Source of the DNA: Actinocatenispora rupis
GTDB lineage: Bacteria > Actinomycetota > Actinomycetes > Mycobacteriales > Micromonosporaceae
DNA: 64,000 bases
Reading direction: 5' to 3'
NCBI RefSeq assembly: GCF_016861975.1
Contig: NZ_BOMB01000016.1
Coordinates: 62,001-126,000 of the forward strand
The notes below the pieces were generated by a model that had not been told where the DNA came from, made no database searches, and saw only the letters and a program-made list of their open reading frames with translations. Shown here one piece after another: positions 1,775 through 33,888 of the stretch. The number at the start of each line of letters is the position of its first letter. Positions within the stretch are counted from its first letter, which is position 1. The position numbers were made by a program, and so were the translations under genes.

Positions 1775-1780
1775 CCGACC

Positions 1781-6524: not shown

Positions 6525-6532
6525 CGGAACCG

Positions 6533-7748: not shown

Positions 7749-7773
7749 GTCGCAAGGTCGGCTGGCGCACCCG

Positions 7774-10868: not shown

Positions 10869-11005
10869 GGCACCGACTCTAGAGCCCACCCCGGGCCCGC
10901 GTACGCCGCCTCGTCGATGTGCCGGCGCGGGCGTGCGGTCGCGGCACGGTGCCGCCGGCACGGTTGCGGAAGCACGGCGGTGGAGGTGTGGTGACGGAGG
11001 CGCGG

Positions 11006-11100
11006 TGGCGGAGGCGGACGGGAATCGAACCCGCCAGCCCGAGATGCTCGGGCTCAACGGTGTTGAAGACCGCGCCGGTCACCAGGCCGGATACGCCTCC
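11006..11100 (-). tRNA. selC: tRNA-Sec (anticodon UCA)
   Basis: On the minus strand a 95-nt tRNA runs from GGAGGCGTATCC to CGCCTCCG followed by an encoded CCA. The anticodon TCA (complement of 11064-11066) sits in the loop CTTCAAC. A long extra arm (GAGCCCGAGCATCTCGGGCT) and the T-loop TTCGATT are present. The overlong acceptor stem and large variable arm are the marks of bacterial selenocysteine tRNA, which is charged with serine and then converted by SelA. It lies 137 nt from the selA start and 89 nt from selD. Confidence 0.96.
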
Positions 11101-11189
11101 CTCGCACCGCCCGCATCGTAACCGCGGCGGTGACCGCCGCGCCGGTACGCCGCGGTGGTGTCGCCGCGGTGGCCGCCTAGTCTGGTGAG

Positions 11190-12188
11190 GTGGCTGGCTA
11201 CCGGTTGACGCAGTACGCGCACGGCGGTGGATGCGCCTGCAAGATCCCGCCGGGGGAACTGGAGTCGATGGTGGCGGGTCTGGCCGCGGCCGGCCCCGCG
11301 CCGGGCGCGCCCGGTGAGCTGCTCGTCGGGCTCGGCGACGGGGACGACGCGGCGGTCGTCCGGCTCGACGCGGCCACCGGCATCGTCGCCACCACCGACT
11401 TCTTCACCCCGGTCGTCGACGACGCGTACGACTGGGGCCGCATCGCCGCCACCAACGCCCTGTCCGACGTGTACGCGATGGGTGGCCGGCCGCTGGTCGC
11501 GGTGAACCTGCTCGGCTGGCCGCGGGACGTGCTGCCCACCGAACTCGCGACCGAGGTGCTGCGCGGCGGTATGGACGTGGCCCGCGCCGCCGCCTGCCAT
11601 CTCGCCGGCGGGCACAGCGTCGACGACCCGGAGCCGAAGTACGGGCTGGCGGTGACCGGGCTGGTCGACCCGGACCGGGTGATCCGCAACGACGCCGGCC
11701 GCGCCGGGCTGCCGCTGTCGCTGACCAAGCCGCTCGGCATCGGCGTCCTGAACGCGCGGCACAAGCAGACCGGCGAGGTGTTCGAGCCGGCCGTCGCCGC
11801 CATGACCGCACTGAACGCGGACGCCGCCACCGCCGCCGTCGCCGCCGGCGTCCGCTGCGGTACCGACGTGACGGGGTTCGGGCTGCTGGGCCACCTGCGC
11901 AAGCTGGCCCGCGCGTCGGGCGTCACCGCCGTCGTCGACAGTGCCGCCGTGCCGTACCTGTCGGGCGCGCGGGACGCGCTGCGCTCCGGGTACGTCTCCG
12001 GCGGTACCCGGCGGAACCTGGCGTGGGTGGAGCCGGACACCGACTTCGGCGCCGTACCGGAGGAGGAGCGGTTGCTGCTGGCGGACGCGCAGACGTCCGG
12101 TGGTCTGCTGCTGGCCGGCGAGATTCCCGGCGCCCCGGTCGTCGGCGAGCTGGTCCCGCGCGGCGAGTACGCCGTCGTGGTGCGCTGA
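11190..12188 (+). CDS. selD: Selenide, water dikinase SelD (332 aa)
   Basis: SelD makes selenophosphate, the selenium donor for SelA, from selenide and ATP. The N-terminus HGGGCACKIPP carries the catalytic Cys-Lys pair; the key residue is cysteine here, not selenocysteine. GDGDDAAVVRLD, DVYAMGG and LAGGHSVDDPEPKYGLAVTG are typical of the PurM/SelD ATP-binding fold. GTG at 11190 is taken as the start because only a few residues precede the conserved LTQYAHGGG; the ribosome site is poor. It is transcribed away from tRNA-Sec and selAB, completing the selenocysteine pathway. Confidence 0.95.
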   Translation: MAGYRLTQYAHGGGCACKIPPGELESMVAGLAAAGPAPGAPGELLVGLGDGDDAAVVRLDAATGIVATTDFFTPVVDDAYDWGRIAATNALSDVYAMGGRPLVAVNLLGWPRDVLPTELATEVLRGGMDVARAAACHLAGGHSVDDPEPKYGLAVTGLVDPDRVIRNDAGRAGLPLSLTKPLGIGVLNARHKQTGEVFEPAVAAMTALNADAATAAVAAGVRCGTDVTGFGLLGHLRKLARASGVTAVVDSAAVPYLSGARDALRSGYVSGGTRRNLAWVEPDTDFGAVPEEERLLLADAQTSGGLLLAGEIPGAPVVGELVPRGEYAVVVR

Positions 12189-12287
12189 CGACGGCATCCG
12201 ACGCGCGCGGAGACGGACGCGACGCCGTCGGCCGGTTGCCGTGGTACGCCAGCATGTCGGTGTCGATCCCCGACCGGAAGGACCACG

Positions 12288-12614
12288 ATGTCGCGTACTC
12301 CGATGCGTGTGCTGGCGCTCGTGGCGGCGGTGCCCCTGCTCGCCGGGCTGGCCGCGTGCACCAAGTCGACCGTGACCTGCGCGGGCGGTACCTGCCATGT
12401 CACGGCGACGCTGGACTCGGGCAGCAGGGCCACGGTGGACGTGTTCGGCAGCCACCAGCTGTCGGTCGGTGACCTGTCCGCCAGCGAGGTGACGGTGGGG
12501 CTGGAGGGGCACCGCAGCACGATGAAGGCGGGCCAGTCGGACGCGCTGGGCGCGTACACGGTGCACGTCGACTCGATCTCCGGCGACACGGTGAAGCTGA
12601 CCGTGACCGGCTGA
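12288..12614 (+). CDS. Small secreted lipoprotein, function unknown (108 aa)
   Basis: A lipoprotein signal peptide is clear: MSRTPMRVLALVAAVPLLAG followed by the lipobox LAAC, with Cys25 as the lipid anchor. The mature part is about 84 residues, has one further Cys pair (TCAGGTC), and is rich in Thr, Val and Ser, suggesting a small beta-sandwich facing outward. The ribosome site GGAAGGACC precedes the ATG. It stands alone between selD and an IclR operon and ends in two hairpins. The family is not recognised. Confidence 0.75.
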   Translation: MSRTPMRVLALVAAVPLLAGLAACTKSTVTCAGGTCHVTATLDSGSRATVDVFGSHQLSVGDLSASEVTVGLEGHRSTMKAGQSDALGAYTVHVDSISGDTVKLTVTG

Positions 12615-12620
12615 TCCGGC

Positions 12621-12642
12621 CACCGCCCGGGTGGGGGCGGTG
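12621..12642 (+). terminator. Hairpin, first of two after the lipoprotein gene
   Basis: Arms CACCGCCC and GGGCGGTG lie immediately after the stop codon and would form a GC-rich hairpin. Confidence 0.45.
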
Positions 12643-12645
12643 CGG

Positions 12646-12684
12646 GGAAGGGCCCGTGCGGCGAGGTGCCGCGCGGGCCCTTCC
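12646..12684 (+). terminator. Long hairpin terminator after the lipoprotein gene
   Basis: GGAAGGGCCCGTGCGGC pairs with GCCGCGCGGGCCCTTCC (17-nt arms, one mismatch) around a 5-nt loop. A T-containing stretch follows. Confidence 0.65.
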
Positions 12685-12796
12685 GTATCTTCTGGCGCGG
12701 GACGTTCCGTTCGCGAGCCTTCGGACGCGCTGGGCGGGTCCGCGGTCACCGTCGTGTTTCCGCTGGTGGTCGCGCGAAATTCAGGTGGCCCGGGCC

Positions 12797-12826
12797 TTGA
12801 CCGTGGCGGAAGTGCAGCGCAATACT
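12797..12826 (+). promoter_or_regulatory. Candidate promoter of the IclR-OPT operon
   Basis: TTGACC at 12797-12802 and AATACT at 12821-12826 are 18 bp apart, placing the transcription start about 20-30 bp before the IclR-type palindrome. This is a pattern match only. Confidence 0.35.
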
Positions 12827-12855
12827 CGCGGCATCGTCTCAGATAATCCAACACT

Positions 12856-12872
12856 GTTTCAATTATTGAAAC
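12856..12872. promoter_or_regulatory. IclR-type operator palindrome
   Basis: GTTTCAAT-T-ATTGAAAC is a perfect 17-bp palindrome in an AT-rich island, 20 bp upstream of the iclR-like ATG at 12893. TTTCAAT/ATTGAAA half-sites are common for IclR-family regulators, so autoregulation of this gene and the operon behind it is likely. Confidence 0.65.
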
Positions 12873-12892
12873 GCTATCGAGGACGGTGCCTG

Positions 12893-13696
12893 ATGCCCGA
12901 TTCCACCGAGACCGTCGCCGGCGTACACCCCGACGCCGACCGCGGTCCTGCCCGCACGGCCGACCGCGCGCTGCGGGTACTGCTGGCGTTCCGTCAGCGG
13001 CCGGAGTGGGGTGTCAGCGACCTGGCCCGCACCCTCGGGCTGGACAAGGCGAACATCCACCGGCTGCTCACCACGCTCGCCGGCCGCGGCTTCGTCCTGG
13101 CCGACCCCGACACCCGGCGGTACCGGCTGGGTCCGGCGATCGCCGTGCTCGCCCGTGCCGCCGAACGCGGTGGCGCGCTGGAGGCCGCGGCCCGGCCGTT
13201 CCTCAGCGAACTCGCCCACGACCTGGACGAGAGCGCGATACTCAACGTCCCGCACGGCGCCGCGTACCGGTGCACGCTCGCGGTCGACGCCGCCGGCCCG
13301 ATCCGGTACTCCGCGACGGTGGGGGAGACCATCCCCGCCCACGGTGGTGCCGCCGGTCACGCGATCTTCGCGTTCTACCCGGTCGACCAGGTCCGTGACC
13401 TGTTGGCCGGTGCCCTGCCGAAGTTCAACGCCCACACCGTCGTCGACCTCGACGACCTGCTCGCCCGGTACGAGAGGGTCCGCGCCGACGGCGTCGCGAT
13501 CTCGCACGGCGAGTTCGACCCGAACGTCACGTCCGTCGCGGCGCCGTGCTTCGCCGCCGGCCAGGTGGTCGGCTCGGTCGTCGTGATCGGCCCGCAGGAC
13601 CGGATGTCCGGCAAGGTCGACACCGCCGTCGACCGGGTACGCGCCGTCGCCGAGCGGCTCAGCCGCGTACTCGACGGCGTACCGACGACCACGTGA
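12893..13696 (+). CDS. IclR family transcriptional regulator (267 aa)
   Basis: The N-terminal winged helix (about residues 20-80, with WGVSDLARTLGLDKANIHRLL as the DNA-reading part and a RYRLG wing) is followed by the IclR effector-binding domain up to RAVAERLSRVLDG. The ATG at 12893 has GAGGA upstream and starts just before the HTH; the frame remains open further upstream through the operator, which argues against a longer protein. It is the first gene of a seven-gene operon of transport and peptide or amino-acid enzymes and probably senses the transported substrate or a breakdown product. Confidence 0.93.
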   Translation: MPDSTETVAGVHPDADRGPARTADRALRVLLAFRQRPEWGVSDLARTLGLDKANIHRLLTTLAGRGFVLADPDTRRYRLGPAIAVLARAAERGGALEAAARPFLSELAHDLDESAILNVPHGAAYRCTLAVDAAGPIRYSATVGETIPAHGGAAGHAIFAFYPVDQVRDLLAGALPKFNAHTVVDLDDLLARYERVRADGVAISHGEFDPNVTSVAAPCFAAGQVVGSVVVIGPQDRMSGKVDTAVDRVRAVAERLSRVLDGVPTTT

Positions 13697-19065: not shown

Positions 19066-20001
19066 GTGAGCTGGCGTCACGTCATCGAGTCCTACGACCT
19101 GCTCGACGACCCGTCGGTCGACGGCGAGGCGGTCGCCGCGTACCTGCGGGCGCAGGGCGCGGACAAGCCCGAGGTGGAGACCGTCACGGGCGACAAGGGC
19201 AGCACGGACTTCGTGCGGCTGACCATCCCCGGCCGGCGCGGGCGCAGCTCGGGCGGCGACGCGCCGACGCTGTCGATCGTCGGCCGGCTCGGCGGGCTGG
19301 GCGCCCGGCCCGAGCAGATCGGTTTCGTCTCCGACGGCGACGGCGCGCTGACCGCGGTCGCGGCCGCCGCCAAGCTCGCCCAGATGCACCAGCGCGGCGA
19401 CGTACTCGACGGCGACGTCGTGATCGCCACGCACATCTGCCCGGACGCGCCGACCCGGCCGCACGACCCGGTGCCGTTCATGGACTCCCCGGTCGACCTG
19501 GACGCGATGAACGTGCACGAGGTCGACGAGTCCGCCGACGCCGTACTGTCCGTGGACACCACCAAGGGCAACCGGATCGTGAACGTCAACGGCTTCGCCA
19601 TCTCGCCCACCGTCAAGCAGGGCTGGATCCTGCGGACGAGCGAGGACCTGCTCGCCGTGCAGCAGCGCGTCACCGGCAGCCTCCCGACCGTACTGCCGCT
19701 CGCCACCCAGGACATCACCCCGTACGGCAACGGCGTGCACCACGTGAACTCGATCCTCCAGCCGGCCGTCGCCACCGCCGCGCCGGTCGTCGGCGTCGCT
19801 GTCACCACCGAGGTACCGGTGGCCGGGTCGGCGACCGGCGCGACCAGCCTCACCAGCGTCGAGCAGACCGTACGGTTCTGCATCGAGGTGGCCAAGGACT
19901 TCGGCCGCGGCGCCGTCAGCTTCTACGACGAGGGCGACTTCGCGCGCCTGGTCGAACGGTACGGCCCGATGACGGTGCTGCAGACGCAGGGCCGCCACTG
20001 A
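19066..20001 (+). CDS. DUF1177 family protein (311 aa)
   Basis: The sequence matches my recollection of DUF1177: an N-terminal SYDLLDDPSVDGEAVAAYL helix, a VTGDKGSTDFVRLTIPG strand pair, and the conserved block HICPDAPTRPHDPVPFMDSP near residues 125-145, rich in His, Asp and Pro and possibly metal-binding. Its function is unknown. A GGAAGGAAAG ribosome site precedes the GTG at 19066, 24 nt after the racemase. It ends the operon and is followed by two hairpins. Confidence 0.8.
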   Translation: MSWRHVIESYDLLDDPSVDGEAVAAYLRAQGADKPEVETVTGDKGSTDFVRLTIPGRRGRSSGGDAPTLSIVGRLGGLGARPEQIGFVSDGDGALTAVAAAAKLAQMHQRGDVLDGDVVIATHICPDAPTRPHDPVPFMDSPVDLDAMNVHEVDESADAVLSVDTTKGNRIVNVNGFAISPTVKQGWILRTSEDLLAVQQRVTGSLPTVLPLATQDITPYGNGVHHVNSILQPAVATAAPVVGVAVTTEVPVAGSATGATSLTSVEQTVRFCIEVAKDFGRGAVSFYDEGDFARLVERYGPMTVLQTQGRH

Positions 20002-22039: not shown

Positions 22040-22069
22040 TTGACAGCGGCGCGGGGTGGGGGGTTACAT
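22040..22069 (+). promoter_or_regulatory. Candidate promoter of the LacI-ABC-glycohydrolase operon
   Basis: A consensus -35 box TTGACA (22040-22045) is followed after 18 bp by TTACAT (22064-22069). The first LacI-type operator begins 12 bp further on, so bound repressor would sit over the start region. Confidence 0.5.
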
Positions 22070-22080
22070 GTGCGCACCGC

Positions 22081-22128
22081 GTAAACGTTTTCAGGCCGGT
22101 AACGTCGCGGCAATCTGAAAACGTTTAC
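22081..22128. promoter_or_regulatory. Twin LacI-family operators
   Basis: GTAAACGTTTTCAG (22081-22094) and CTGAAAACGTTTAC (22115-22128) are perfect inverted copies of each other, and each contains the LacI-family core AAACGTTT. Their centres are 36 bp apart. They precede the LacI-type gene at 22157, so autorepression of the operon is expected. Confidence 0.8.
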
Positions 22129-22156
22129 ACAACGACGTGCGCGGAGAGGAGGACCG

Positions 22157-23164
22157 GTGGGCGAGGACGGGCCGACGATCGTCACGATCGCGGAGCGCGC
22201 GGGCGTGTCGATCGCGTCGGTGTCGCGCGTGCTGAACGGGCAGTCCGCGCGGCCGGAGACCACCGAGCGGGTGCTCGCCGCCGCCGACGCCCTCGGGTAC
22301 GTGCCGAACGCGGTGGCCCGGTCGCTGAAGTCCCGGCGTACCAACCACATCGCGTTCGCGATGGCGGACATCGGCAACCCGGTCTACCTGGCGATGGTGC
22401 GCGAGATCCAGCAGGTGCTGCGCGCCGCCGGCTACCGGTTGGTGCTGCACTCGACGGACGCCGACGTCGACGACGAGCTGGAGGTACTCCGCGGCCTCGG
22501 CCAGCGGTACGTGGACGGTCTGATCCTCTGCCCGCTGCGCGTGACGTCCGGGCACCTGGCCGAGCTGACGCGGGCACCGGTGCCGGTCGTGGTGATCGGT
22601 TCGGTGCCGGACGGGCAGCCGGTCGACAGCGTCCGCGCAGACTCGCGTACCGGGGTGTCGCTCGCCGTGCGCCACCTGTACGAGCAGGGCCGGCGCCGGA
22701 TCGGTTTCGTCAACGGCCCGGTGGACACGGTGCCCGGCGCGGCGCGCGACGCCGGCTTCCGGGCGGCGCTCGCCGAGGTCGGCCTGGCGTACGAGGAGTC
22801 GCGGGTGGAGATCGGCGACTTCTACGTGGAGGGCGGGGCGCGGGCCGCGGATCGGTTGCTGGCGCGGGCCGACGTGGACGCGCTGCTGTGCGCGAACGAC
22901 CTGATGGCCGTCGGTGCGCTGCGTACGTTGCGGGAGCACGGCCGGGACGTACCGGCGGACGTCGCCGTGGTCGGCATGGACGACACGGACCTGGCGACGA
23001 CCACCTGGCCGCCGCTGACCAGCGTCGGTCTCGGCTCCGCGGAACGCGGTCGGCGCGCCGCCGAGCTGCTCATCGACCGGATCACCGGCGCGACCGCGCG
23101 GGCGGGCAGCCCGCGGCAGATCCTCGTCCGGCCCCGCCTGGCCGTACGGGGGTCGAGCCGGTGA
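22157..23164 (+). CDS. LacI family transcriptional regulator (335 aa)
   Basis: The N-terminal helix-turn-helix and hinge ([20 protein letters not shown], then [15 protein letters not shown]) are typical LacI family. The periplasmic-binding-protein-like sensor domain follows, with [37 protein letters not shown] and [12 protein letters not shown] motifs. GAGAGGAGGACC is a strong ribosome site. It is the first gene of a long operon and overlaps the first permease gene by 4 nt, so it likely represses the whole unit in the absence of a sugar or riboside ligand. Confidence 0.95.
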
Positions 23165-24081
23165 CCGCCGCGACCGCCACCCTCGCCGCCAACGCGAAAC
23201 CGGTGCGCCGCAAGGGTTTCGAGCCCGCCGTACTCGGTCTGGTCGCGCCGGCGCTGCTGCCCGTCCTCGTACTGTCCGTCGCGCCGTTGCTGTACGGCAT
23301 CTATCTCGGTTTCACGGACGCGCGGGCCGGGCGCAACATGCCGGTGCACGTGACGGGCTTCGCGAACTACGTCGAGCTGTTCGGCGACGCGGACTTCTGG
23401 GGTTCGTTCCGGATCGGGCTGGTGTGGGCGGTCGGCGTGACCGTGCTCCAGTTCGCCGCGGCGCTCGGGCTCGCCCTGCTGCTCAACCAGAAGCTGCGCG
23501 GCCGGTGGCTGGCCCGCACCCTCACCCTCGTACCGTGGGCGATGCCGCCGGTGGTCGTCGGCCTGATGTGGCGCCTGGTGTACCACCCGCAGGCCGGGAT
23601 CCTGAACAGTACGTTGAAGGACCTGCACCTCATATCGTCCAATGTGGACTGGCTGAACAGCTTCACGCTGGCCTTGCCCGCGGTCATCGCGGTCGGCGTG
23701 TGGGCCGGGATGCCGCAGACCACGATCACGCTGCTGGCCGGGCTCCAGGCCGTGCCGGGCGAGCTGACCGAGGCCGCCACGGTCGACGGAGCCTCGACGT
23801 GGCAACGGTTCCGTGCGGTCACCTGGCCGGCGCTGCGACCCGTGGTCACCGCGATCACCGCGCTCGACTTCATCTGGAACATCAACCAGTTCGGCCTGGT
23901 GTACGTGCTGACGCAGGGCGGGCCCGGCGGGCAGACCCGGCTCCCCATGCTCTTCGCGTACGAGGAGGCGTTCCGCTACGGCTTCTTCGGGTACGCGGCG
24001 TCGCTGGGTGTGGCGATCGTGCTCGTCGTCCTGGTGGTCCTGGCGTTCTACCTGCGGCGCATGCTGAAGGAGGCGGTGTGA
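23161..24081 (+). CDS. Sugar ABC transporter permease, CUT1 MalF-type (306 aa)
   Basis: Six predicted membrane segments and the cytoplasmic EAA loop ([18 protein letters not shown], around residues 200-217) identify a binding-protein-dependent permease. [22 protein letters not shown] near the C-terminus is typical of MalF/UgpA-like subunits of carbohydrate (CUT1) importers. GTG at 23161 overlaps the regulator stop (GTGA). It forms the membrane channel with the next gene. No ATPase subunit is encoded nearby, so a shared MsmK-type ATPase elsewhere is expected. Confidence 0.93.
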
Positions 24082-24920
24082 GTACCGCTCGGCGCGGCGG
24101 GGTGGGCACGCCGCTGAAGTACCTGGCGCTGCTGGGTTACCTGGTGTTCCTGGCGTTTCCGTTGGCGTGGCTGGCATCCACGGCGCTGAAGACGCCGCGG
24201 GAGATGGCCTCGCTGGACCCGACGTGGATCCCGCGGCACCCGACGCTGGCCAACTTCGCGGAGGCGTTCCGGGAGCAGAACCTGACGCAGAGCGCCGGCA
24301 ACAGCCTGCTCGTCGCCCTGACCGCCGCCGTACTCACGGTCCTGCTGGCGCTGCCCGCGGCGTACGCGCTGGTGCGGTTCCGATCGGTGCTGAACAAGCT
24401 TGCCCTCGCCTGGGTACTGGTGAGCCAGGTCTTCCCGTTCATCCTGGTGATCATCCCGCTGTTCATGATCCTCAAGCAGCTCGACCTGGTGAACACCCGC
24501 GGCGGGCTGATCCTGGTGTACCTGACGTTCAACCTGCCGTTCGCGCTCTGGATGCTCCAGGGGTACGTGCGGGGTGTGCCGAAGGAGTTGGAGGAGGCCG
24601 CCTCGGTGGACGGGGCCGGGCGGCTGCGAGTCCTGCGTACCGTGGTGGCACCGCTGCTGGCACCGGGTGTGGTGGCCACGTTCCTGTTCGCGTTCATCTC
24701 GTCGTGGAACGAGTTCATGTTCGCGCTGGTGCTGTTGAAGGATCCGGATCTGGCCACGCTGCCGCTGACTCTGGTGCGGTTCACCGGCGCGGACGGTGTC
24801 GCCCGGCTCGGCCCGCTCGCCGCGGCCGCGCTGCTGGCCACGATCCCGAGCCTCGCCCTGTTCGCCGTGATCCAGCGCCGGCTGACCGCCGGGCTGCTGG
24901 CCGGCGCCGTCAAGGGCTGA
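24078..24920 (+). CDS. Sugar ABC transporter permease, CUT1 MalG-type (280 aa)
   Basis: This is a six-helix permease with the EAA loop [26 protein letters not shown] (about residues 170-195) and the MalG-type signature [19 protein letters not shown] at 24078 overlaps the end of the first permease gene, preceded by AAGGAGG. The pair fits the CUT1 class, which imports di- and oligosaccharides, glycerol phosphates and some glycosides. The specificity must come from the binding protein encoded next. Confidence 0.93.
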
Positions 24921-24953
24921 CCCCCTTTCCGTTCGTAGAGAAGGAAGTCCGTG

Positions 24954-26237
24954 ATGCAGCGTCGTACCCTGCTGGCCGTGGTGCCGGCCGCGCTCGTCGC
25001 CGCCGGTACCGCCGGCTGTTCCTCCGGCTCGTCCGACGGCCCGGTGACCTTGCGGTTCCTCAGCCTGGCCTGGCAGAAGGAATCCATCGCGGCCAACAAG
25101 AAGCTGGTCGCCGAGTGGAACAAGAAGAACCCCAAGATCCAGGTCAAGTACGTGCAGGGGTCGTGGGACAACGTGCACGACCAGCTCGTCACCGCGTTCG
25201 AGGGTGGTGACGCGCCGGACGTGATCCACGACGAGTCGCCGGACATCGCCGGTTTCGCCGCGCAGAACTACCTCCAGGACCTCACCGACCTGCTGCCGTC
25301 CGCGCTGAAGAACGACATCTCCGCGCAGTCCTGGGACACCGTCAAGTTCGCCGGCGGCGGCATCTACGGTGTGCCGTTCCTCCAGGAGTCGCAGATCTTC
25401 GTGGCGAACCGGAAACTGTTGCAGCAGGCCAAGGTCCGGATCCCGACCGTCGACGCGCCCTGGACGTGGGACGAGTACGCCGAGGTGTGCAGGAAGCTCA
25501 CGGTCAAGGGCAAGCAGTACGGGGTGGCCTGGCCGTTGAGCGCCCCCGTCAACAAGGTGCTCAACCTGTCCCTCAACTTCGACGGCACCTTCTTCGGTAC
25601 GTCCGGCGGCAAGACCACGGTGCACGTGGGCGACAACGAGAAGCAGGTACTGCGCCGGATCCACGACCAGCTCTGGGTGGACCACTCCGCCGACCCGGCC
25701 ACGGTCGGCATGAAGGGCGCCGATCCACTGCCCGCGTTCTTCGCCGGCAAGTACGCGATGGTGCCGGCCGGGGTGTACTTCCGGCAGCAGGTCGTGCAGG
25801 GCGCGCCGAAGGGCTTCGACTGGGTGACGATCCCGCCGCTCAAGGGCACCTCGCAGCACCAGGGCGCCACCTCGCAGACGCTGTCGATCCCGGCCGACGG
25901 CAAGAACCAGAAGCAGGCCATGCAGTTCATCTCGTTCCTGCTGAACGGGCCCAACCAGGCGACACTGGCGCTCGGCGACTGGCTCGTACCGACGAGCAAG
26001 GAGGCGGCGAAGGACCCGCGGCTGACCACCACCAAGGACGACTGGAACGTCGCGACCGCCTCGCAGCAGAACCTCGTCGTCGCGCCGTACCTGAAGGTGG
26101 ACGGCTTCGACGAGTGGAAGACGAAGGTCGCCACCCCCGCGATGCAGCAGTACTTCAACAACAAGATCTCGCTGGACGCGCTGGCCACCAAGCTCGTCAA
26201 GGATGGCAACGAGGTCCTGAAGCGGTACCAGAAGTGA
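24954..26237 (+). CDS. Extracellular solute-binding lipoprotein of the CUT1 importer (427 aa)
   Basis: A lipoprotein signal (RRTLLAVVPAALVAAGTAGC) ends in the lipobox TAGC, and a Ser/Gly linker follows. The body has the type I carbohydrate-binding-protein fold, with AFEGGDAPDVIHDESPDIAGFA and the late PAFFAGKYAMVPAG motif common in CUT1 receptors. An AAGGAAG ribosome site is 6 nt from the ATG at 24954; GTG at 24951 is the alternative. It would capture the ligand outside the membrane and hand it to the two permeases. Confidence 0.93.
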   Translation: MQRRTLLAVVPAALVAAGTAGCSSGSSDGPVTLRFLSLAWQKESIAANKKLVAEWNKKNPKIQVKYVQGSWDNVHDQLVTAFEGGDAPDVIHDESPDIAGFAAQNYLQDLTDLLPSALKNDISAQSWDTVKFAGGGIYGVPFLQESQIFVANRKLLQQAKVRIPTVDAPWTWDEYAEVCRKLTVKGKQYGVAWPLSAPVNKVLNLSLNFDGTFFGTSGGKTTVHVGDNEKQVLRRIHDQLWVDHSADPATVGMKGADPLPAFFAGKYAMVPAGVYFRQQVVQGAPKGFDWVTIPPLKGTSQHQGATSQTLSIPADGKNQKQAMQFISFLLNGPNQATLALGDWLVPTSKEAAKDPRLTTTKDDWNVATASQQNLVVAPYLKVDGFDEWKTKVATPAMQQYFNNKISLDALATKLVKDGNEVLKRYQK

Positions 26238-28498
26238 CGGACCTGGGTGGGCGGGCGCGGGGGTGCCTGCTGGGGCTCGCGGCCGGGGACGCCCTCGGCC
26301 GCCCGGCGGAGAACCTGACGCCGCAGGCGATCGCGGCGCGCTGGGGCGTGCTGCGGGAGCTGGAGCCGCTGCCGGACGGCCGGCCCGCCGGGACCGACGA
26401 CACCGAGTACAGCGTGTTCGTGTCGCTCCTGCTGGAGCGGCACGGCGCCGCGCTCACCCCGGCCGACGTGTACGCGGCCTGGCGGGCCGACGTGGCGGGC
26501 GTGACCGGACCGTTGAAGGGCGCCGGCTTCTCCGAACTCGGTACGGTGCAGGCGATCCGGCGCGGTCTCGTCCCGCCGGCCACCGGCCAGCACCACCACG
26601 GCTGGTCGGACGGGCTGGCGATGCGGGCCGCGCCGTACGGGGTGTTCGCCGCCGGCGACCCCGCCGAGGCCGCCCGCCTGTCCGAAGTGGACGGTACGGT
26701 CGCGCACTCGGGCGAGGGGATCCTCGGCGGCCGCGCGGTCGCCGCCGGGGTGGCCGCCGCGATGACCGGCGCCCGGCCGACATCCGTCGTCGAGTCCGCG
26801 CTCTCCGTCGTACCGGCGGACTCGTGGACGGCGCGGGCGCTGCGGCGTGCGATCGCCGCGGTGGCAACGGATCCCGGCGACCGTCTCGCCGACGTCCTGT
26901 ACGACGCGGTCGTGCCCCGGCACTACCCGTGGGCCGACCTCGCGCCCGAGGCAGTGGCACTGGCGTACGCGGCGTACCTGGTGGCGGACGGGGATGTGGA
27001 AGGCTCCGTCGTCACCGCCGCGAACCTCGGCCGCGACGCGGACACCACCGCGGCCATCGCCGGCGCGCTCGCCGGGGCCGGCGCGGGGGAGTCCGCCGTA
27101 CCGGCGCGGTGGGCCGAGGCGATCGGCCCCCTGCGCGGCAGTTGCCTGCCGTCCGTGGCGGGCCTCGATGTCCGCGACGTGGCCGACCGCCTCGTCGCCG
27201 CCCGTACCCGCTCGATTCCCGCCACCGCCGCACCGGCGCCGGCATCGGCCGCGGCGTCGCCGGCGTCCGGGGCCGGACCGACCCCGACGGTGGCCGTCTG
27301 CGCGGATCCCGTCGGTGGCACCGGCCCTGGCGACTCCGGCCCCGGCACGGATACGTCGGCACGGGGGGCCGGTTCCGGTGGTACGGCGGCGTTCGCGCGT
27401 TCCGTCGCACCGTCCACATCGGACCACATTGGCGCGGACGGGCGGAGAAGGGACGATGGACCCGTTGGTACGACGGCGTCACGAGCCGTGGCACCGTCCA
27501 CATCGGACCGGGTGCGCGGGGCGTTCGTGGGGTTGGCGATCGGGGACGCCACGGGGTGGCCGGCTTCGCGGCACCGGTTCGGGTTGCTGGCGCCGTGGAC
27601 GCGGCGGCTGGCGCGCGAGCTGGACGCGTACGCGGAGGAGCACGCCGTGACGACGTTGCCGGTGCCGTTCGCGCTGAACCAGCCGACGGGTCCGCTGGCG
27701 GTGGGGCCGTCGGACGACGCCGAGTGGCTGGCGTACGCGGCGGACACGGTCGGCGTGGACCGGGCGGCGGCGTACCGGAAGCTGGTGGGGCGAACGGATC
27801 TGCGGGCGCGCATCTCGGTGCGGACCGCGCTGGACAACCTGGCCGCGGGGCTGGCGCCGCCGGTCAGCGGGCACGACAACCCGCACCACTTCGACGATGC
27901 CGCGGCGGTCCGGGCGGTCGCGTTCGGCGCCCGGTACGCCGGGGATCCGGTCGCGGCGGCGACGGCGGCGCAGGCCGATGCCGAGGTGACGAACGCGCTC
28001 GACGGGGTGGCCGGGGCGCGGGCGATGGCGGCCGGCGTGGCGGTCGCGCTCACCGGCGACCTGGCCGGACTGCCCGGTGCCGTACTCGCCGAACTGCCGG
28101 CGGGGACGGCGATCCGGCGTACCGCGGAGCGTGCGCTGTCCATCGTGGACGGACGTGATCCGTTCGAGGCGGCGGCGGACCTGGCCGAGGCCGTCGCCGA
28201 CCACGTGTACAGCTACGGCGTGGCCGCCGCGGACACGGTGCCGCTCGCGCTGGCGTTGACCGTCGCGGCCGGCGGTCGATTCGCCGCCGCGCTGGGCGCC
28301 GCCGCGACGGTGCCGTCGTACGCGGAGTCGGTGCCGGCGTTGACCGGCGCGCTGTGCGGGGCGTACGCGGGATTCGCGGCGCTGCCGGCGGGTTGGCGGG
28401 AGCGTTGCCGCACCCTGGCCGGCTGCTGCCTTCCGGAGTACGCCGGGACGGACCTGGTGGCGGTCGCCGACCGTCTCAGTACCCAAGGAGGAACCTGA
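26234..28498 (+). CDS. Fused two-domain ADP-ribosylglycohydrolase family protein (754 aa)
   Basis: Two ADP-ribosylglycohydrolase-like domains are joined by a low-complexity Ala/Pro/Gly/Ser linker (about residues 330-425). Domain 1 has both metal-binding regions: GTDDTEYSVFV near residue 55 and the C-terminal NLGRDADTTAAIAGALAG near residue 265. Domain 2 begins RGAFVGLAIGDATGWPA and keeps SDDAEWLAY, but the C-terminal aspartate motif is replaced by a PSYAESVPALTGAL stretch, so it is probably inactive. GTG at 26234 overlaps the binding-protein stop. Family members cleave N- or O-ribosyl bonds with Mg2+. The linker carries two in-frame copies of a 19-bp repeat. Confidence 0.85.
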   Translation: MTDLGGRARGCLLGLAAGDALGRPAENLTPQAIAARWGVLRELEPLPDGRPAGTDDTEYSVFVSLLLERHGAALTPADVYAAWRADVAGVTGPLKGAGFSELGTVQAIRRGLVPPATGQHHHGWSDGLAMRAAPYGVFAAGDPAEAARLSEVDGTVAHSGEGILGGRAVAAGVAAAMTGARPTSVVESALSVVPADSWTARALRRAIAAVATDPGDRLADVLYDAVVPRHYPWADLAPEAVALAYAAYLVADGDVEGSVVTAANLGRDADTTAAIAGALAGAGAGESAVPARWAEAIGPLRGSCLPSVAGLDVRDVADRLVAARTRSIPATAAPAPASAAASPASGAGPTPTVAVCADPVGGTGPGDSGPGTDTSARGAGSGGTAAFARSVAPSTSDHIGADGRRRDDGPVGTTASRAVAPSTSDRVRGAFVGLAIGDATGWPASRHRFGLLAPWTRRLARELDAYAEEHAVTTLPVPFALNQPTGPLAVGPSDDAEWLAYAADTVGVDRAAAYRKLVGRTDLRARISVRTALDNLAAGLAPPVSGHDNPHHFDDAAAVRAVAFGARYAGDPVAAATAAQADAEVTNALDGVAGARAMAAGVAVALTGDLAGLPGAVLAELPAGTAIRRTAERALSIVDGRDPFEAAADLAEAVADHVYSYGVAAADTVPLALALTVAAGGRFAAALGAAATVPSYAESVPALTGALCGAYAGFAALPAGWRERCRTLAGCCLPEYAGTDLVAVADRLSTQGGT
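27407..27509 (+). repeat. Two in-frame copies of a 19-bp repeat inside the glycohydrolase linker
   Basis: GCACCGTCCACATCGGACC occurs at 27407-27425 and 27491-27509, 84 bp apart and in frame, both encoding a VAPSTSD peptide. The core GTCC-N5-GGAC recurs elsewhere in the window (for example 3057-3069, 1227-1239 and 17986-17998). Confidence 0.8.
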
Positions 28499-29649
28499 TG
28501 CTCACCGTACTGGCCGACCGGGCCGTCGGCTGCCTGACCGGGGCGGCCGTCGGCGACGCGCTGGGCGGTGCCACCGAGGGGTGGACACCGGCCGCGATCC
28601 GGGAACGGTACGGGGACTGGGTGACCGGCATCGTCGGCCCGTTCAACACCGACTGGCGCAACGCCCGCCCGATCGCCCCGTACCACAAGGGCGACGGCCA
28701 CGTCACCGACGACACCCTGATGACGCACGCGCTGGTCCGGGTGTACCAGCGGGTCCGCGGCCATCTCGACGCGTACGCGGTGGCGGAGCACCTGGTGGCC
28801 GAGATGGTCTCCGACCGGCACTGGATCCCCGAACTGGAGCGCGACGACCTGTTGCTGTCGCGGGTGTTCCTGGCCGAGAAGTGGCTGGTGCTCCGGCTCC
28901 GGTACGGGCACGTCGACCCGCGCGAGGCGGGCGTCGGCAACATCGTGAACTGCGGTGCCGCCATGTACTCGGCGCCGATCGGCGTGGTGAACGCGGGCGA
29001 CCCGGACCGGGCGTACGCGGAGGCGATCGACGTCGCGGGCGCGCACCAGTCGTCGTACGGCCGGGAGGCGGCCGGGGTGTTCGCCGCCGCGGTGGCGGAG
29101 GCGATGCGGCCGGGCGCGGACCCGGAATCGGTGGTGGCGACGGCGATCCGCGTCGCGCACGACGGTACGCGGGCGGCGATCGAGGCGGTGTGCGCGACGG
29201 CGCGTGACGTTCCACAGTGGACGGACGCGGCGGAACCGTTGCGCCGCACCATGTCCGCGTACGACACGGTCGGGGAGGACTACCGGGACCAGGGGCTCGG
29301 GGCGCGCCGGCCGAGCCGGCTGCACGCCATCGAGGAACTGCCGATGGCGCTGGCGATGCTGCTGATCGCGCGCGGCGACGTGCGCGACACCGTACTCGGT
29401 GGCGTGAACTACGGCCGGGACGCCGACTCGATCGCCAGTATGGGCGGCGCGTTGGCGGGCGCGCTGGGCGGATCCGCGGCGGTACCGCAGGAGTGGGTGA
29501 AGGACGTGTCGGCGGCGAGCCGGCTCGACCTGGCGGCGCCGGGGCTGGCGCTGGCCGAGGTCGCCGCGGAGGTGCACGCGCGCGATCTGGCTGCGCGGCG
29601 CGACCACGAGGCGGCGTTCGCCGCGCTGTCCGCGGAGGCGGGCGCGTGA
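28498..29649 (+). CDS. ADP-ribosylglycohydrolase family protein, second paralogue (383 aa)
   Basis: The N-terminus RAVGCLTGAAVGDALGGATEGW is the family start motif, GHVTDDTLMTHALVRVY near residue 73 holds the first metal-binding aspartates, and NYGRDADSIASMGGALAGALGG near residue 303 the second pair. The domain is complete. AAGGAGG lies 5 nt before the ATG, which overlaps the previous stop by one base. It is the second of three paralogues in the operon. The three are divergent, so they probably act on different forms of the substrate or at different steps. Confidence 0.9.
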   Translation: MLTVLADRAVGCLTGAAVGDALGGATEGWTPAAIRERYGDWVTGIVGPFNTDWRNARPIAPYHKGDGHVTDDTLMTHALVRVYQRVRGHLDAYAVAEHLVAEMVSDRHWIPELERDDLLLSRVFLAEKWLVLRLRYGHVDPREAGVGNIVNCGAAMYSAPIGVVNAGDPDRAYAEAIDVAGAHQSSYGREAAGVFAAAVAEAMRPGADPESVVATAIRVAHDGTRAAIEAVCATARDVPQWTDAAEPLRRTMSAYDTVGEDYRDQGLGARRPSRLHAIEELPMALAMLLIARGDVRDTVLGGVNYGRDADSIASMGGALAGALGGSAAVPQEWVKDVSAASRLDLAAPGLALAEVAAEVHARDLAARRDHEAAFAALSAEAGA

Positions 29650-30986
29650 TCCGGCTGACCTGGGTGCAGCCGGAGGACCTGGTCGGGCACGAGCTGCGGC
29701 AGGCGACGGAGGACGGCCGCGATCCGGCCGCGGTCGCGCAGCTCGCCGACCGGTGGTACGCGGCGGGCGGGCATCCGGCGCCACCGCAGGCGGGCGCCTC
29801 GCCGGAGCCCGCCGACCCGGCCCTGCGTACGCTCGCGGAACGGTCGTTGGACGAGCTGGCGGCGCTGCCCCGGCCGAGCGACGCCGAGCCGTACGGCTGG
29901 GACGAGATCGTGGCGGCGTGCCCGGACTGGCCGGTGGCGACACCGGCGCCGGTGGACGTGGAGCGGCTGCGCGGCGCGTGGCTGGGGCGGGCTGCGGGAT
30001 GCCTGCTGGGCAAGCCGGTCGAGAAGATCCCGCGCGCCGGGATCCGCGAGATCGCCGAGGCGACGGGGAACTGGCCGCTGCGTACCTGGTTCACCGCGCG
30101 CGGGCTGCCGGCCGAGGTCGCCGCCCGCTGGCCGTGGAACCGGCGCAGCGCGCCGACCAGCCTGGCCGAGAACATCGACGGGATGCCCGAGGACGACGAC
30201 CTCAACTACCCGATGCTCGCCCTGCTGCTGCTCGAACGACACGGCCCCGGCTTCGGTACGGACGACGTGGCGCGGCTGTGGCTGGACGAGCTGCCCGCGG
30301 GCCGTACGTTCACCGCCGAGCGCGTCGCGTACCGGAATCTGTTGGGTGGGCTGGAACCGCCGCGGACCGCGACGTACCGGAACCCGTTCCGGGAGTGGAT
30401 CGGCGCGCAGATCCGCGCCGACCTCTACGGCTGGGTCAGTCCCGGCGATCCCGCCCGCGCCGCGCGCCTGGCGTACGCGGACGCGCGGCTGACGCACGTC
30501 GGCAACGGCGTGTACGGCGCGATGTTCGTGGCGGCGGCGTGCGCGGCGGCGGTGACGGGCGCGGGAGTACCGGCGGCGCTGGCAGCGGGGTTGTCGGTGG
30601 TGCCGCCGCGATCCCGGCTGGCCGTCGCGGTCCGGCACGGCATCGAGCTGGCCGACCGCGGACCCGACTGGGAGACCGTACTCGACGGGCTGCACGCGTC
30701 GTACGGTGCGCTGCACTGGGTGCACGCGGTGAACAACGCCGCGCTGGTGGCCGCGGCGCTGACGTACGGCGGGGGCGACTTCGGCCGGTCGGTGACCGCG
30801 GCGGTGGCCGGCGGCTGGGACACCGACTCGGACGCGGCCACGGTCGGCTCGATCGTCGGCGCGACCGCCCCCGTACCTCCACAGTGGACGGACCCGCTGC
30901 GGAACCGGATCGCCAGCAGCGTCACCGGATTCGACGGGATCGGCTTCGGCACGTTGGCCGCGCGTACCGCGGAGGTGAGCGGGTGA
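29646..30986 (+). CDS. ADP-ribosylglycohydrolase family protein, third paralogue (446 aa)
   Basis: An N-terminal extension of about 105 residues (IRLTWVQPEDLVGHELRQA...) precedes the glycohydrolase domain, which starts at LRGAWLGRAAGCLLGKPVEK. Metal motifs are MPEDDDLNYPML and, near the end, GGWDTDSDAATVGSIVGA; the latter matches the GWDTDSDAAT form seen in many family members. GTG at 29646 overlaps the previous stop (GTGA). The ribokinase-like gene that follows suggests free ribose is a product of this or a sister enzyme. Confidence 0.9.
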   Translation: MIRLTWVQPEDLVGHELRQATEDGRDPAAVAQLADRWYAAGGHPAPPQAGASPEPADPALRTLAERSLDELAALPRPSDAEPYGWDEIVAACPDWPVATPAPVDVERLRGAWLGRAAGCLLGKPVEKIPRAGIREIAEATGNWPLRTWFTARGLPAEVAARWPWNRRSAPTSLAENIDGMPEDDDLNYPMLALLLLERHGPGFGTDDVARLWLDELPAGRTFTAERVAYRNLLGGLEPPRTATYRNPFREWIGAQIRADLYGWVSPGDPARAARLAYADARLTHVGNGVYGAMFVAAACAAAVTGAGVPAALAAGLSVVPPRSRLAVAVRHGIELADRGPDWETVLDGLHASYGALHWVHAVNNAALVAAALTYGGGDFGRSVTAAVAGGWDTDSDAATVGSIVGATAPVPPQWTDPLRNRIASSVTGFDGIGFGTLAARTAEVSG

Positions 30987-31882
30987 GCGCCGGTGTGGTG
31001 GTGCTGGGCAGCGCGAACATGGACCTGGTGGCGACCGCCGAGCGGCTGCCGGGGCGCGGCGAGACGGTCGCCGGCGGCACGTTCCGCCTCGTACCCGGGG
31101 GCAAGGGCGCGAACCAGGCGGTCGCTGCGGCGCGGGCCGGTGGCGCCGTACGGTTCGCCGGTGCGGTCGGCGACGACGACCTCGGCCGGCGGGTGCTCGC
31201 CGCGCTCGCCGCGGCCGGCGTGGACACCGCGGCGGTGACGCGCGCGGCCGGACCGACCGGTACCGCGCACATCACCGTGGATGCGGCCGGCGACAACACG
31301 ATCGTCGTCGTACCGGGGGCGAACGGCACGCTGACGGCGCTGGCACCCGCGCACGCCGCGGCGATCGACGGCGCGGACACCCTGCTGCTCCAGCTCGAAC
31401 TCCCGCTGTCGTTGGTGTGCGAGGCAGCCGCGTACGCCCGCGCCCGCGGGGTCCGGGTGGTCCTCACGCCGGCGCCGGCCCGCCCGCTGCCGGACGGTCT
31501 CCTCGCCGACGTCGACCTGCTCGTACCGAACGAGCACGAGGCGACGATCCTCGCCGGCACCCCCGATCCCGACGCCGCGGTACGCCGGCTCGCGGAGCGG
31601 TGCGACGTGGTCCTGACCCTCGGCGCGCGCGGTGCCGTGCACGCCGCCGCCGGCGCGGAACCCGTTGCGGTACCGGCTTTTCCGGTCACCGCGGTGGACA
31701 CCACGGCGGCCGGCGACACCTTCGTCGGCGTACTTGCCGCCGCGCTCGCCGACGGTACGGCGATGGCCGGTGCGTTGCGCCGGGCGACGGCCGCGGCGGC
31801 GCTGTCGGTGCAGCGGCCCGGCGCGTCCGACTCGGCGCCCACCGCGGCCGAGATCGACTCGTTCCTCGGCGGTGCGGGATGA
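30983..31882 (+). CDS. Ribokinase-like PfkB family sugar kinase (299 aa)
   Basis: VLGSANMDLVATAERLPGRGETV at the N-terminus, GGKGANQAVAAARAG near residue 40 and the C-terminal VDTTAAGDTFVGVLAAAL block (catalytic Asp in AGDTF) are PfkB family motifs, and the N-terminal pair is closest to ribokinase. It would phosphorylate ribose or a related pentose with ATP. GTG at 30983 overlaps the third glycohydrolase gene (GTGA). Its place right behind three ribosyl-bond hydrolases supports a role in salvaging released ribose. Confidence 0.9.
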   Translation: MSAGVVVLGSANMDLVATAERLPGRGETVAGGTFRLVPGGKGANQAVAAARAGGAVRFAGAVGDDDLGRRVLAALAAAGVDTAAVTRAAGPTGTAHITVDAAGDNTIVVVPGANGTLTALAPAHAAAIDGADTLLLQLELPLSLVCEAAAYARARGVRVVLTPAPARPLPDGLLADVDLLVPNEHEATILAGTPDPDAAVRRLAERCDVVLTLGARGAVHAAAGAEPVAVPAFPVTAVDTTAAGDTFVGVLAAALADGTAMAGALRRATAAAALSVQRPGASDSAPTAAEIDSFLGGAG

Positions 31883-33078
31883 GCGCGGAGGGCGGCGGGC
31901 CGCTGGCCGGGCTGCGGGTGGTGGACGCGTCGACGCTGTTCGCCGGGCCGCTGACCGCGATGCACCTGGGCGACATGGGCGCCGACGTGGTCAAGGTCGA
32001 GCACCCGCGGCGACCGGACCCCGCACGCGGGCACGGACCGGCGCGCGACGGCCACAACCTCTGGTACAAGACGCTCGGGCGGAACAAGCGCGCGGTGACC
32101 GCGGACCTGTCGTCGGACGGCGGGCGGGACGTGTTCCGGCGGCTGGCGGCCACCGCCGACGTGGTGGTGGAGAACTTCCGGCCCGACACCCTCGAACGCT
32201 GGGGCCTCGGCTACGACGTGCTCGCCGCCGACAACCCCGGTCTCGTCCTCGCCCGGATCACCGGCTTCGGCCAGCTCGGCCCGTACCGGCGGCGCCCGGG
32301 GTTCGGCACACTGGCGGAGGCGATGAGTGGCTTCGCGGCGATGACCGGCGCGCCGGACGGTCCGCCGACCCTGCCGCCGTTCGGCCTCGCGGACGGCATC
32401 ACCTCGCTGGCCGCTGCGTACGCGGTGACGACGGCACTGCTCGCCCGGCACACCACCGGCCGCGGCCAGGTGGTCGACCTGGCCATCGTGGAGCCGATGC
32501 TCGCCATGCTCGGCCCGCAGATCACGCAGTGGGACCAGCTCGGCACCGTACAGCCGCGGACGGGGAACCGGTCGGCGAACAACGCGCCGCGCAACACGTA
32601 CCGGTGCGCGGACGGGCGGTGGGTGGCGGTGTCGACCAGTTCGCAGAACATCGCCGAACGCGTGATGCGCCTGGTGGGCCGGCCCGACGTGGTCGACGAG
32701 CCGTGGTTCGCCACCGGCGCCGGCCGGGTACGCCACGCCGACGAGCTGGACGGCGCGGTCGCCGGGTGGATCGCGGCGCGGAGCCGGGACGAGGTGGTTG
32801 CCGCGTTCGAGGCCGCACAGGCGGCGGTGGCGCCGATCTACGACGCGTCCGACATCGCCACCGACCCGCAGTACGCGGCGCTCGGCACGGTCGTCACCGT
32901 CGACGACGCCGACCTCGGCCCGGTCGCCATGCAGAACATCCTGTTCCGGCTGTCCGACACGCCCGGCGCGGTGCGGTTCCCCGGCCGCGCGCCGGGCGCC
33001 GACACCGACACCGTCCTCGCCGAACTCGGGTACGCCGTCGACGAGGTCGCCGCGCTCCGCGCCGAGGGGGCGGTCTAG
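31879..33078 (+). CDS. Class III CoA-transferase (CaiB/BaiF family, 399 aa)
   Basis: The family is clear from LAGLRVVDASTLFAGPLTAMHLGDMGADVVKVEHP at the start, RNKRAVTADL, the VVVENFRPDTLERWGLGYD block and ITGFGQLGPYRRRPG. These enzymes move CoA between carboxylic acids. Where many members have the acyl-accepting Asp (GFD before LxxAMSG), this protein has PGFGTLAEAMSG, with Gly at that place; this comparison is from memory. ATG at 31879 overlaps the ribokinase stop. With the next gene it could activate and cleave an organic-acid product of the pathway. Confidence 0.88.
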   Translation: MSAEGGGPLAGLRVVDASTLFAGPLTAMHLGDMGADVVKVEHPRRPDPARGHGPARDGHNLWYKTLGRNKRAVTADLSSDGGRDVFRRLAATADVVVENFRPDTLERWGLGYDVLAADNPGLVLARITGFGQLGPYRRRPGFGTLAEAMSGFAAMTGAPDGPPTLPPFGLADGITSLAAAYAVTTALLARHTTGRGQVVDLAIVEPMLAMLGPQITQWDQLGTVQPRTGNRSANNAPRNTYRCADGRWVAVSTSSQNIAERVMRLVGRPDVVDEPWFATGAGRVRHADELDGAVAGWIAARSRDEVVAAFEAAQAAVAPIYDASDIATDPQYAALGTVVTVDDADLGPVAMQNILFRLSDTPGAVRFPGRAPGADTDTVLAELGYAVDEVAALRAEGAV

Positions 33079-33888
33079 GTGCTGACCTTCCTGTACGTGC
33101 CGGCGGACCGGCCGGACCGCGTCGGCAAGGCGCTCGCCGGGGACGCCGACGTGGTTCTCGTCGACCTGGAGGACGCCGTCGCCCCCGACCGCAAGCGGTA
33201 CGCCCGGGAGGAGGCCGCGCGGCTGCTCGCCGACGTCACCGACCGCCCCGTGCAGGTACGCGTGAACGACGTGCGGACCGGCGCCGGGCTCGCCGACCTC
33301 GCCATGGTCGCCGGCCTGCCCACCGCCGTCGGCGTACGGCTGCCGAAGGTCGAGGACGCGGGCACCGTCCGGGCCGTCGCCGACCAGGTACCGGGGCGGG
33401 CGCTGCACCCGCTGCTGGAGTCCGCGCTCGGCGTCGAGCGGGCGTACGCGATCGCGACGGCGCACGCGGCGGTCGCCTCGCTCGGGCTGGGCGAGGCGGA
33501 CCTGCGCGCGGACCTCGGCCTGCCGGCGGACGCCGACGCGGGCCTCGCGTACCCGAGGTCGCGGGTGGCGGTGGCGGCGCGGGCGGCGGGCCTGCCCGCG
33601 CCGGCCCAGTCGGTGTACCCGCACGTGCGCGATCTCGACGGGCTGGCCGCCTCGTGCCGGGACGGGCGGAATGCGGGATTCCTTGGGCGGGCGGCGATCC
33701 ACCCCGCGCAGCTGCCGGTCATCGCCGCCGCGTACGCTCCGACGGACGCCGAGCTGGCCGCCGCCCGCGACCTGCTCGCCCGCGAGTCGGCGGGTGCGGC
33801 GGCGCTGCCCGACGGGCGGTTCGTCGACGAGGCGATCCTGCGGACGGCGCGCCGCACCGTCGCCCTCGCCGACCGCCGCCGACCCTGA
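33079..33888 (+). CDS. CitE/HpcH-HpaI family acyl-CoA lyase or aldolase (269 aa)
   Basis: The motifs LYVPADRPDRVGKAL, DVVLVDLEDAVAPDRK (acidic metal-binding segment near residue 30), VRVNDVRTG, LPKVEDAG and PLLESALGVERAYAIA follow the CitE/malyl-CoA lyase TIM-barrel order. Members split or form acyl-CoA hydroxy acids such as malyl-, citramalyl- or citryl-CoA. GTG at 33079 directly follows the CoA-transferase stop. The transferase-lyase pair suggests activation of a hydroxy acid followed by carbon-carbon cleavage. This is the last clear gene of the LacI operon. Confidence 0.88.
   Translation: MLTFLYVPADRPDRVGKALAGDADVVLVDLEDAVAPDRKRYAREEAARLLADVTDRPVQVRVNDVRTGAGLADLAMVAGLPTAVGVRLPKVEDAGTVRAVADQVPGRALHPLLESALGVERAYAIATAHAAVASLGLGEADLRADLGLPADADAGLAYPRSRVAVAARAAGLPAPAQSVYPHVRDLDGLAASCRDGRNAGFLGRAAIHPAQLPVIAAAYAPTDAELAAARDLLARESAGAAALPDGRFVDEAILRTARRTVALADRRRP

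Follow-up and report, generated by a model that had tools for sequence, protein, structure and literature searches.

The window analysed here, a 64,000-nucleotide stretch of the Actinocatenispora rupis genome (contig NZ_BOMB01000016.1, positions 62,001 to 126,000), contains an operon of ten plus-strand genes that runs from the start of a LacI-family regulator gene (22157) to the end of a gene for a CitE-like lyase (33888). We propose, with a probability of roughly 0.6, that this operon encodes a full catabolic pathway, regulated locally, for a small conjugate found outside the cell that contains a hydroxy acid and a pentofuranose, with ribose the likeliest sugar. Besides the regulator and the lyase, the operon specifies a CUT1 importer, proteins of the ADP-ribosylglycohydrolase (ARH) family with domains called here GH1 to GH4, a PfkB-family kinase, and a family III coenzyme A (CoA)-transferase, CaiB (Table 1). 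An earlier note on this DNA had described ten joined genes at this place, all of which are present, and had suggested a sequence of import, deglycosylation, phosphorylation, and CoA activation and cleavage. Two findings give this logic good support: the whole set is conserved in distantly related bacteria, and the active-site motifs are intact. The gene set, motifs, operators, conservation, mutual exclusion and fold prediction reported below were established by computation.

In the proposed pathway, a LacI repressor on twin operators would keep the operon off until an inducer arrives. The binding lipoprotein and two permeases would bring the conjugate in, with power supplied by a shared MsiK/UgpC-type ATPase, and GH1/GH2, GH3 and GH4 would act as intracellular glycosidases that cut successive glycosidic bonds. 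GH1 and GH2 together would carry out the step that, in most relatives, falls to a glycosidase-like TIM-barrel/SUMF1 protein (the TIM protein). PfkB would phosphorylate the freed pentose and CaiB would transfer CoA onto the freed acid, leaving the CitE-like lyase to split the resulting beta-hydroxyacyl-CoA into acetyl-CoA and either a keto or aldehyde acid or acetoacetate. Glycoside uptake, the glycosidase role of the ARH proteins, the substrate, the order of the cuts, and the identities of sugar and acid are what we infer.

Conservation of the gene set

Genome-context searches, proposed in the earlier note as a check, found these families recurring together far beyond chance, at more than 100 loci in Actinobacteria as well as on plasmids of rhizobia; many of the carriers live in soil or with plants. 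GH4 was seen at 56–65% identity in most of 61 matching genomes (201 sampled within the family of this strain, to which Micromonospora also belongs). Judging from 20-kb regions, these relatives keep the same gene order and mostly carry, between PfkB and CaiB, the TIM protein of ∼650 amino acids; some also have an added esterase that contains beta-propeller repeats and starts with a stretch resembling a signal peptide. A TIM-anchored search of named genomes yielded 80 loci, with CaiB and CitE in 77, GH4 in 76, GH3 and the binding protein in 75 each, PfkB in 64 and the esterase in 28. Hosts include Glycomyces, Microbacteriaceae, Promicromonosporaceae, Cellulomonadaceae, Pseudonocardiaceae, Nocardiopsis, Desertimonas and others. 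GH3 was used as the anchor for an independent sample, and was present in 67/395 genomes of the class; the 20 regions inspected have the same gene set, 17 with GH1/GH2 and three with the TIM protein. GH3 is the steadiest partner of CaiB/CitE. Five loci (L206, L207, L209, L217 and L218) have no LacI or CUT1 match and were inspected for an alternative transporter; the genes around L207 encode tryptophan synthase, Lgt and VIT1, and thus give no clue to the substrate.

Outside Actinobacteria, Ensifer plasmids carry genes for LacI, two permeases, a binding protein, GH3, a GH4-like protein, UgpC, a CoA-transferase and a CoA-ester lyase, with identities to the A. rupis proteins of 47% for CaiB, 42% for GH3 and 32% for CitE. 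The Agrobacterium version has a ribokinase at the place of Ensifer's CaiB/CitE. In Agrobacterium tumefaciens HAMBI 105, the plasmid that bears the operon is typed as conjugative, and insertion sequence (IS) elements and quorum-sensing genes lie nearby. A plasmid of Sphingopyxis sp. FD7 (locus L222) has a distant TIM copy with a ribokinase gene on one side and a GH127 beta-L-arabinofuranosidase gene on the other, a CoA-transferase gene coming next; the pathway may have a gram-negative relative here. This locus (77-13071) also has a TonB receptor, dehydrogenases and a phosphoenolpyruvate (PEP)-mutase-family lyase nearby.

A minimal version of the operon is kept in genomes of 1.3 Mb (L214) and 1.8 Mb (L211), which suggests that the substrate is a common dissolved compound. 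Taken together, the operon's occurrence in Actinobacteria associated with plants, on plasmids of rhizobia and in very small genomes suggests a common natural substrate.

Exchange of GH1/GH2 with a glycosidase-like protein

GH1/GH2 and the TIM protein were found together in none of 130 actinobacterial loci with GH3 or CaiB. Two loci, L212 and L214, were first scored as having neither, and direct inspection revealed diverged GH1/GH2 in both. The TIM-anchored sample is biased toward TIM, but this bias does not affect the count of zero double carriers. A protein query found no TIM gene anywhere in the genome of this strain or those of three genus mates, with positive controls found; searching the phylum with an alignment of TIM sequences likewise gave no match, a result set aside because that search was insensitive. 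In a tree of GH3 and CaiB, the state switches between GH1/GH2 and TIM at least four times, three of them forced by well-supported branches. One caveat here is that the tree was built by a quick method and drew long-branch warnings, making the exact number of switches soft.

The AlphaFold model of the TIM protein is fairly confident (mean pLDDT 80.8), and its Foldseek matches are glycosidase barrels of the GH13/GH30 type and folds of the formylglycine-generating enzyme (FGE/SUMF1). The protein is thus predicted to combine a glycosidase-like TIM barrel with an FGE/SUMF1-like domain; no Pfam glycosidase family matches the barrel. On the simplest reading, GH1/GH2 and the TIM protein make the same glycosidic cut. 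This repeated exchange with a glycosidase-like protein points to the ARH proteins being glycosidases that act on the imported compound, rather than enzymes that remove ADP-ribose from proteins.

The same mutual exclusion is also expected if the two variants serve different substrates. GH1/GH2 and TIM/SUMF1 would then mark two sub-pathways with a common core (CUT1, GH3, CaiB and CitE), the swapped part fitting different side chains or linkages. In line with this, GH4 is absent from L212 and L214, which have GH1/GH2, yet occurs in nearly every complete TIM operon, such that the TIM module may be GH4 plus TIM; and the binding protein of this strain is just 33–55% identical to those of TIM operons. 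However, both variants share their partners, the two sets of binding proteins align as one family, and no operon has both modules, though generalists might be expected. We regard two sub-pathways as possible but rather doubtful.

The ARH proteins

Discussion of ARH-fold proteins centres mostly on their removal of ADP-ribose from proteins. The earlier note counted three ARH-family genes and gave their products a glycohydrolase role. The gene count stands, but these genes hold four PF03747 domains above the gathering score; the glycosidase role is backed by the exchange with TIM, but one of the domains, GH2, is probably altered catalytically. The metal-binding motifs of the family, DD and DxD(T/S), are intact in GH1, GH3 and GH4 and are not found intact in GH2. 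Across 24 aligned sequences each, T70, D71, D72, D308, D310 and S311 of GH3 are invariant, as are D183, D184, D185, D392, D394 and S395 of GH4, a protein with an N-terminal extension of ∼105 amino acids. An alignment of 22 GH1 and 21 GH2 sequences indicates that the first Asp of the second GH2 motif is lost in every readable relative, and that both are lost in this strain. Judged from these motifs, GH2 is probably a non-catalytic or altered partner.

GH1 and GH2 are encoded by separate genes in three genus mates. Here they are joined by a linker of ∼100 amino acids, rich in Ala, Gly, Pro, Ser and Thr, that is far longer than the corresponding gene junctions in the genus mates; the region (27172-27505) contains an imperfect repeat, with VAPSTSD occurring twice. 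Because of this long, repeat-bearing linker, we suggest that the double protein arose by a recent in-frame gene fusion. ARAGORN calls a tRNA-Ala (CGC) inside GH2 (28216-28295, plus strand); it is unsupported by Rfam and probably a false positive.

Could these proteins instead reverse protein ADP-ribosylation or detoxify ADP-ribosylated small molecules, their clustering with an importer being regulatory or incidental? The definition of the family fits such a role, and the closest structures solved so far belong to DraG, ARH3 and enzymes akin to them. Set against this, the curated cut-offs are not reached for DraG (TIGR02662; 65.7 and 56.9 bits versus 337) or for Tri1 (45.8 bits versus 490), and no ADP-ribosyltransferase is encoded in the operon. 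Moreover, the paralogous domains, three or four in number, stay linked to an importer, CaiB and CitE in different phyla, and in relatives ARH is replaced by a glycosidase-like barrel. Given the unmet cut-offs, the lack of a transferase in the operon and the wrong gene company, we rejected protein de-ADP-ribosylation, and consider the wider alternative very improbable.

ARH genes of this kind also occur in other settings. The trio GH1/GH2/GH4 is found in another gene context, a cluster (L070, 1257-12250) where it is flanked by two CUT1 transporters, PfkB and LacI, and which lacks GH3, CaiB and CitE. A second GH4-type protein, 50% identical, is encoded in the genome of this strain (C33, 15634-16908) without the rest of the operon.

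The sugar and acid branches

ARH enzymes act on alpha-D-ribofuranosyl bonds, and by this analogy ribose is the leading candidate for the released sugar, with another pentofuranose also possible; the presence of GH127 next to the Sphingopyxis copy hints at the latter. The PfkB kinase is the top ribokinase-like protein in the genome of this strain, and a ribokinase is present in the Agrobacterium and Sphingopyxis versions too, both of which support the proposed pathway. An upstream PfkB gene and a small gene (c11) in relatives were considered as a ribose-mutarotase operon and dismissed: c11 encodes YccF, and the other neighbours are unrelated.

For the acid, relatives of CaiB in the PDB include formyl-CoA transferase and succinate-3-hydroxy-3-methylglutarate (HMG) CoA-transferase (9br7). 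CaiB falls below the equivalog cut-offs for succinate-glutarate CoA-transferase (249.7 versus 750 bits) and succinyl-CoA:mesaconate CoA-transferase (201.8 versus 700 bits). The lyase matches RipC and Mycobacterium tuberculosis Rv2498c, at 163.6 bits for RipC versus an equivalog cut-off of 375. In a profile alignment, its R61, E114 and D141, invariant in 20 aligned sequences, correspond to R64, E112 and D138 of Rv2498c, which hold metal and substrate in an enzyme that splits (S)-citramalyl-CoA and (R)-HMG-CoA (PMC6689899). No itaconyl-CoA hydratase domain is present among the ten operon proteins; with no hydratase in the operon and the curated cut-offs unmet, the itaconate pathway proper was rejected. 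CaiB and the lyase reach no curated equivalog cut-off, and so their acid may be new. Unmodified malate would go straight into the tricarboxylic acid cycle, with no need for a CaiB/CitE route; our best guess is therefore citramalate, another alkyl-malate or HMG.

If the acid were HMG, the pathway might serve plant pentofuranosyl glycosides that are HMG-acylated or otherwise acylated, such as flavonoid apiosides, with the esterase and glycosidases of the relatives dismantling them and CaiB/CitE degrading HMG. The activities of 9br7 and Rv2498c favour this idea, several hosts are plant-associated, judging from species name or source, and legume flavonoids with both apiofuranose and HMG exist (PMC11044239). 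Yet the operon also resides in very small genomes, and citramalate or alkyl-malates suit the enzymes equally well. Nor is apiose, to our knowledge, a substrate of ribokinase. We therefore view acylated apiosides as an unlikely substrate.

Several observations weigh against a complete pathway for a pentofuranose–acid conjugate. NCBIfam cut-offs for RipC, the CaiB subfamilies and DraG are not reached, PfkB lies narrowly under the ribokinase cut-off (Table 1), and Foldseek gives the TIM model modest scores (TMq about 0.35). PfkB is also missing from 13 TIM operons with CaiB and CitE, as well as from both L212 and L214; such gaps would be expected if a general ribokinase can stand in. Versions in Agrobacterium, Nitratireductor and Pseudochrobactrum have no adjacent CaiB/CitE; hence, the acid branch is separable from the rest of the operon. 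Finally, the rhizobial binding protein hardly aligns with that of this strain and, on this basis, the compounds imported by the rhizobial and actinobacterial versions may differ.

The importer and its ATPase

Two BPD_transp_1 permeases and an SBP_bac_1 lipoprotein make up the CUT1 importer. The earlier note remarked that the transporter lacks its own ATPase, which is true yet ordinary: three UgpC/MsiK-type ATPases above the curated cut-off are encoded elsewhere in the genome, and a shared ATPase of this type could serve. In streptomycetes, the MsiK ATPase is common to many importers (PMC4890002). Rhizobial operon versions include their own UgpC gene.

The AlphaFold model of the binding lipoprotein (pLDDT 91.9) matches mostly common oligosaccharide binders in Foldseek, along with UgpB and dinucleotide binders; we take these matches to be generic and not diagnostic of the ligand. 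They would suit an ordinary oligosaccharide operon in which CaiB and CitE are mere passengers, as would the importer, which is of a common type. However, CaiB and CitE accompany the glycosidases in 77 of the 80 TIM-anchored loci and the linkage is seen again in Alphaproteobacteria, making such an operon scarcely credible.

Regulation and operon layout

Twin LacI-type operators (GTAAACGTTTTCA and its exact inverted copy) precede the LacI gene and are the only exact copies of this sequence in the 7.83-Mb genome; allowing one mismatch adds just two further sites. Because exact copies occur only upstream of its own gene, the regulator is probably a local, autoregulatory repressor. LacI orthologues stand first in most actinobacterial copies of the operon. 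The earlier note had placed a promoter with twin operators here. The operators are exact, inverted copies, and TTGACA lies at 22040, but no full consensus sigma-70 promoter was found.

It had also described joining by 4-base overlaps, which is the case at six of the nine junctions, where stop and start codons overlap; the other three are a 1-base overlap, a flush junction and a 33-base gap directly 5′ of the binding-protein gene. Upstream of the operon lies a peptidase S51 gene and downstream of it a chorismate-binding (PabB-type) gene; neither looks related to it.

Table 1. Features of the operon and its upstream region, in window coordinates
Feature	Position	Strand	Basis
TTGACA, possible −35 element	22040..22045	+	direct sequence reading
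LacI-type operator 1, GTAAACGTTTTCA	22081..22093	+	exact
LacI-type operator 2, inverted copy of operator 1	22116..22128	-	exact
LacI-family regulator	22157..23164	+	PF00356, PF13377
CUT1 permease, MalF type	23161..24081	+	PF00528, EAA-type motif
CUT1 permease, MalG type	24078..24920	+	PF00528
Solute-binding lipoprotein	24954..26237	+	PF01547 (SBP_bac_1), 143 bits; lipobox TAGC
Double ARH protein GH1+GH2, 754 amino acids	26234..28498	+	PF03747, two stretches
GH1 domain, intact motifs GTDDTEY and GRDADT	about 26234-27200	+	motif alignment
GH2 domain, SDDAE kept, SYAES replacing GRDADT	about 27490-28498	+	motif alignment
ARH protein GH3	28498..29649	+	PF03747, 180 bits
ARH protein GH4, variant motifs PEDDD and GWDTDS	29646..30986	+	PF03747, 160 bits
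PfkB-family kinase, ribokinase-like	30983..31882	+	TIGR02152, 294.3 bits (cut-off 299.65)
Family III CoA-transferase CaiB/BaiF, candidate catalytic Asp172	31879..33078	+	PF02515, 400.7 bits, above gathering score
CitE/HpcH-type beta-hydroxyacyl-CoA lyase	33079..33888	+	PF03328, 96 bits

Elsewhere in the window, a gene for a DUF1177 protein (439 bits; 19066-20001, plus strand) lies near the peptidase S51 gene. A selenocysteine tRNA at 11006-11100 (minus strand) is backed by both ARAGORN and Rfam; given its presence, the strain probably makes selenoproteins.

Significance and comparison with known systems

The earlier note knew of no described pathway with this set, and we likewise found no description of the gene set or pathway in the open-licence literature, a scope in which a subscription paper could be missed. 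In many bacteria, several ARH paralogues travel with genes for an importer, a kinase and a CoA-ester lyase. If these ARH proteins are glycosidases, then automatic naming as "ADP-ribosylglycohydrolase" misleads and a class of glycosidases has been overlooked; the repeated swap with TIM-barrel/SUMF1 proteins would, in turn, reveal a candidate new glycoside hydrolase family. A broader proposition, tentative and at somewhat less than even odds, is that members of the ARH superfamily truly function as carbohydrate glycosidases, in a pathway for acid-bearing pentofuranosides that is widespread but so far undescribed. Here, an active/degenerate GH1/GH2 pair would be interchangeable with a new TIM+SUMF1 glycoside hydrolase family, and the substrate would be a common natural compound not yet linked to these genes.

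Parts of the operon resemble known systems. The predicted fold of the relatives' TIM/SUMF1 partner is like those of GH13/GH30-type glycosidases and FGE/SUMF1 domains, but its barrel matches no Pfam glycosidase family and the protein is absent from the genome of this strain. E. coli yegTUV (PMC10819704) and staphylococcal triads (PMC3637587) likewise combine ARH, a transporter and PfkB/ribokinase in one cluster, but with a single-protein transporter and one ARH gene, and without a CUT1 importer, CoA-transferase or lyase. Itaconate/citramalate degradation (Ict-Ich-Ccl/Rip, Rv2498c) shares a family III CoA-transferase relative and a CitE-like lyase with the same catalytic residues; the operon described here differs in having no itaconyl-CoA hydratase, in enzymes that score far under the curated cut-offs, and in being embedded among glycoside-uptake genes. 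Actinobacterial CUT1 sugar operons served by a shared MsiK, such as cebEFG (PMC4890002), have the same sugar-type repressor, two permeases, lipoprotein and distant ATPase, whereas the A. rupis operon couples these to ARH enzymes and CaiB/CitE rather than to classical glycosidases.

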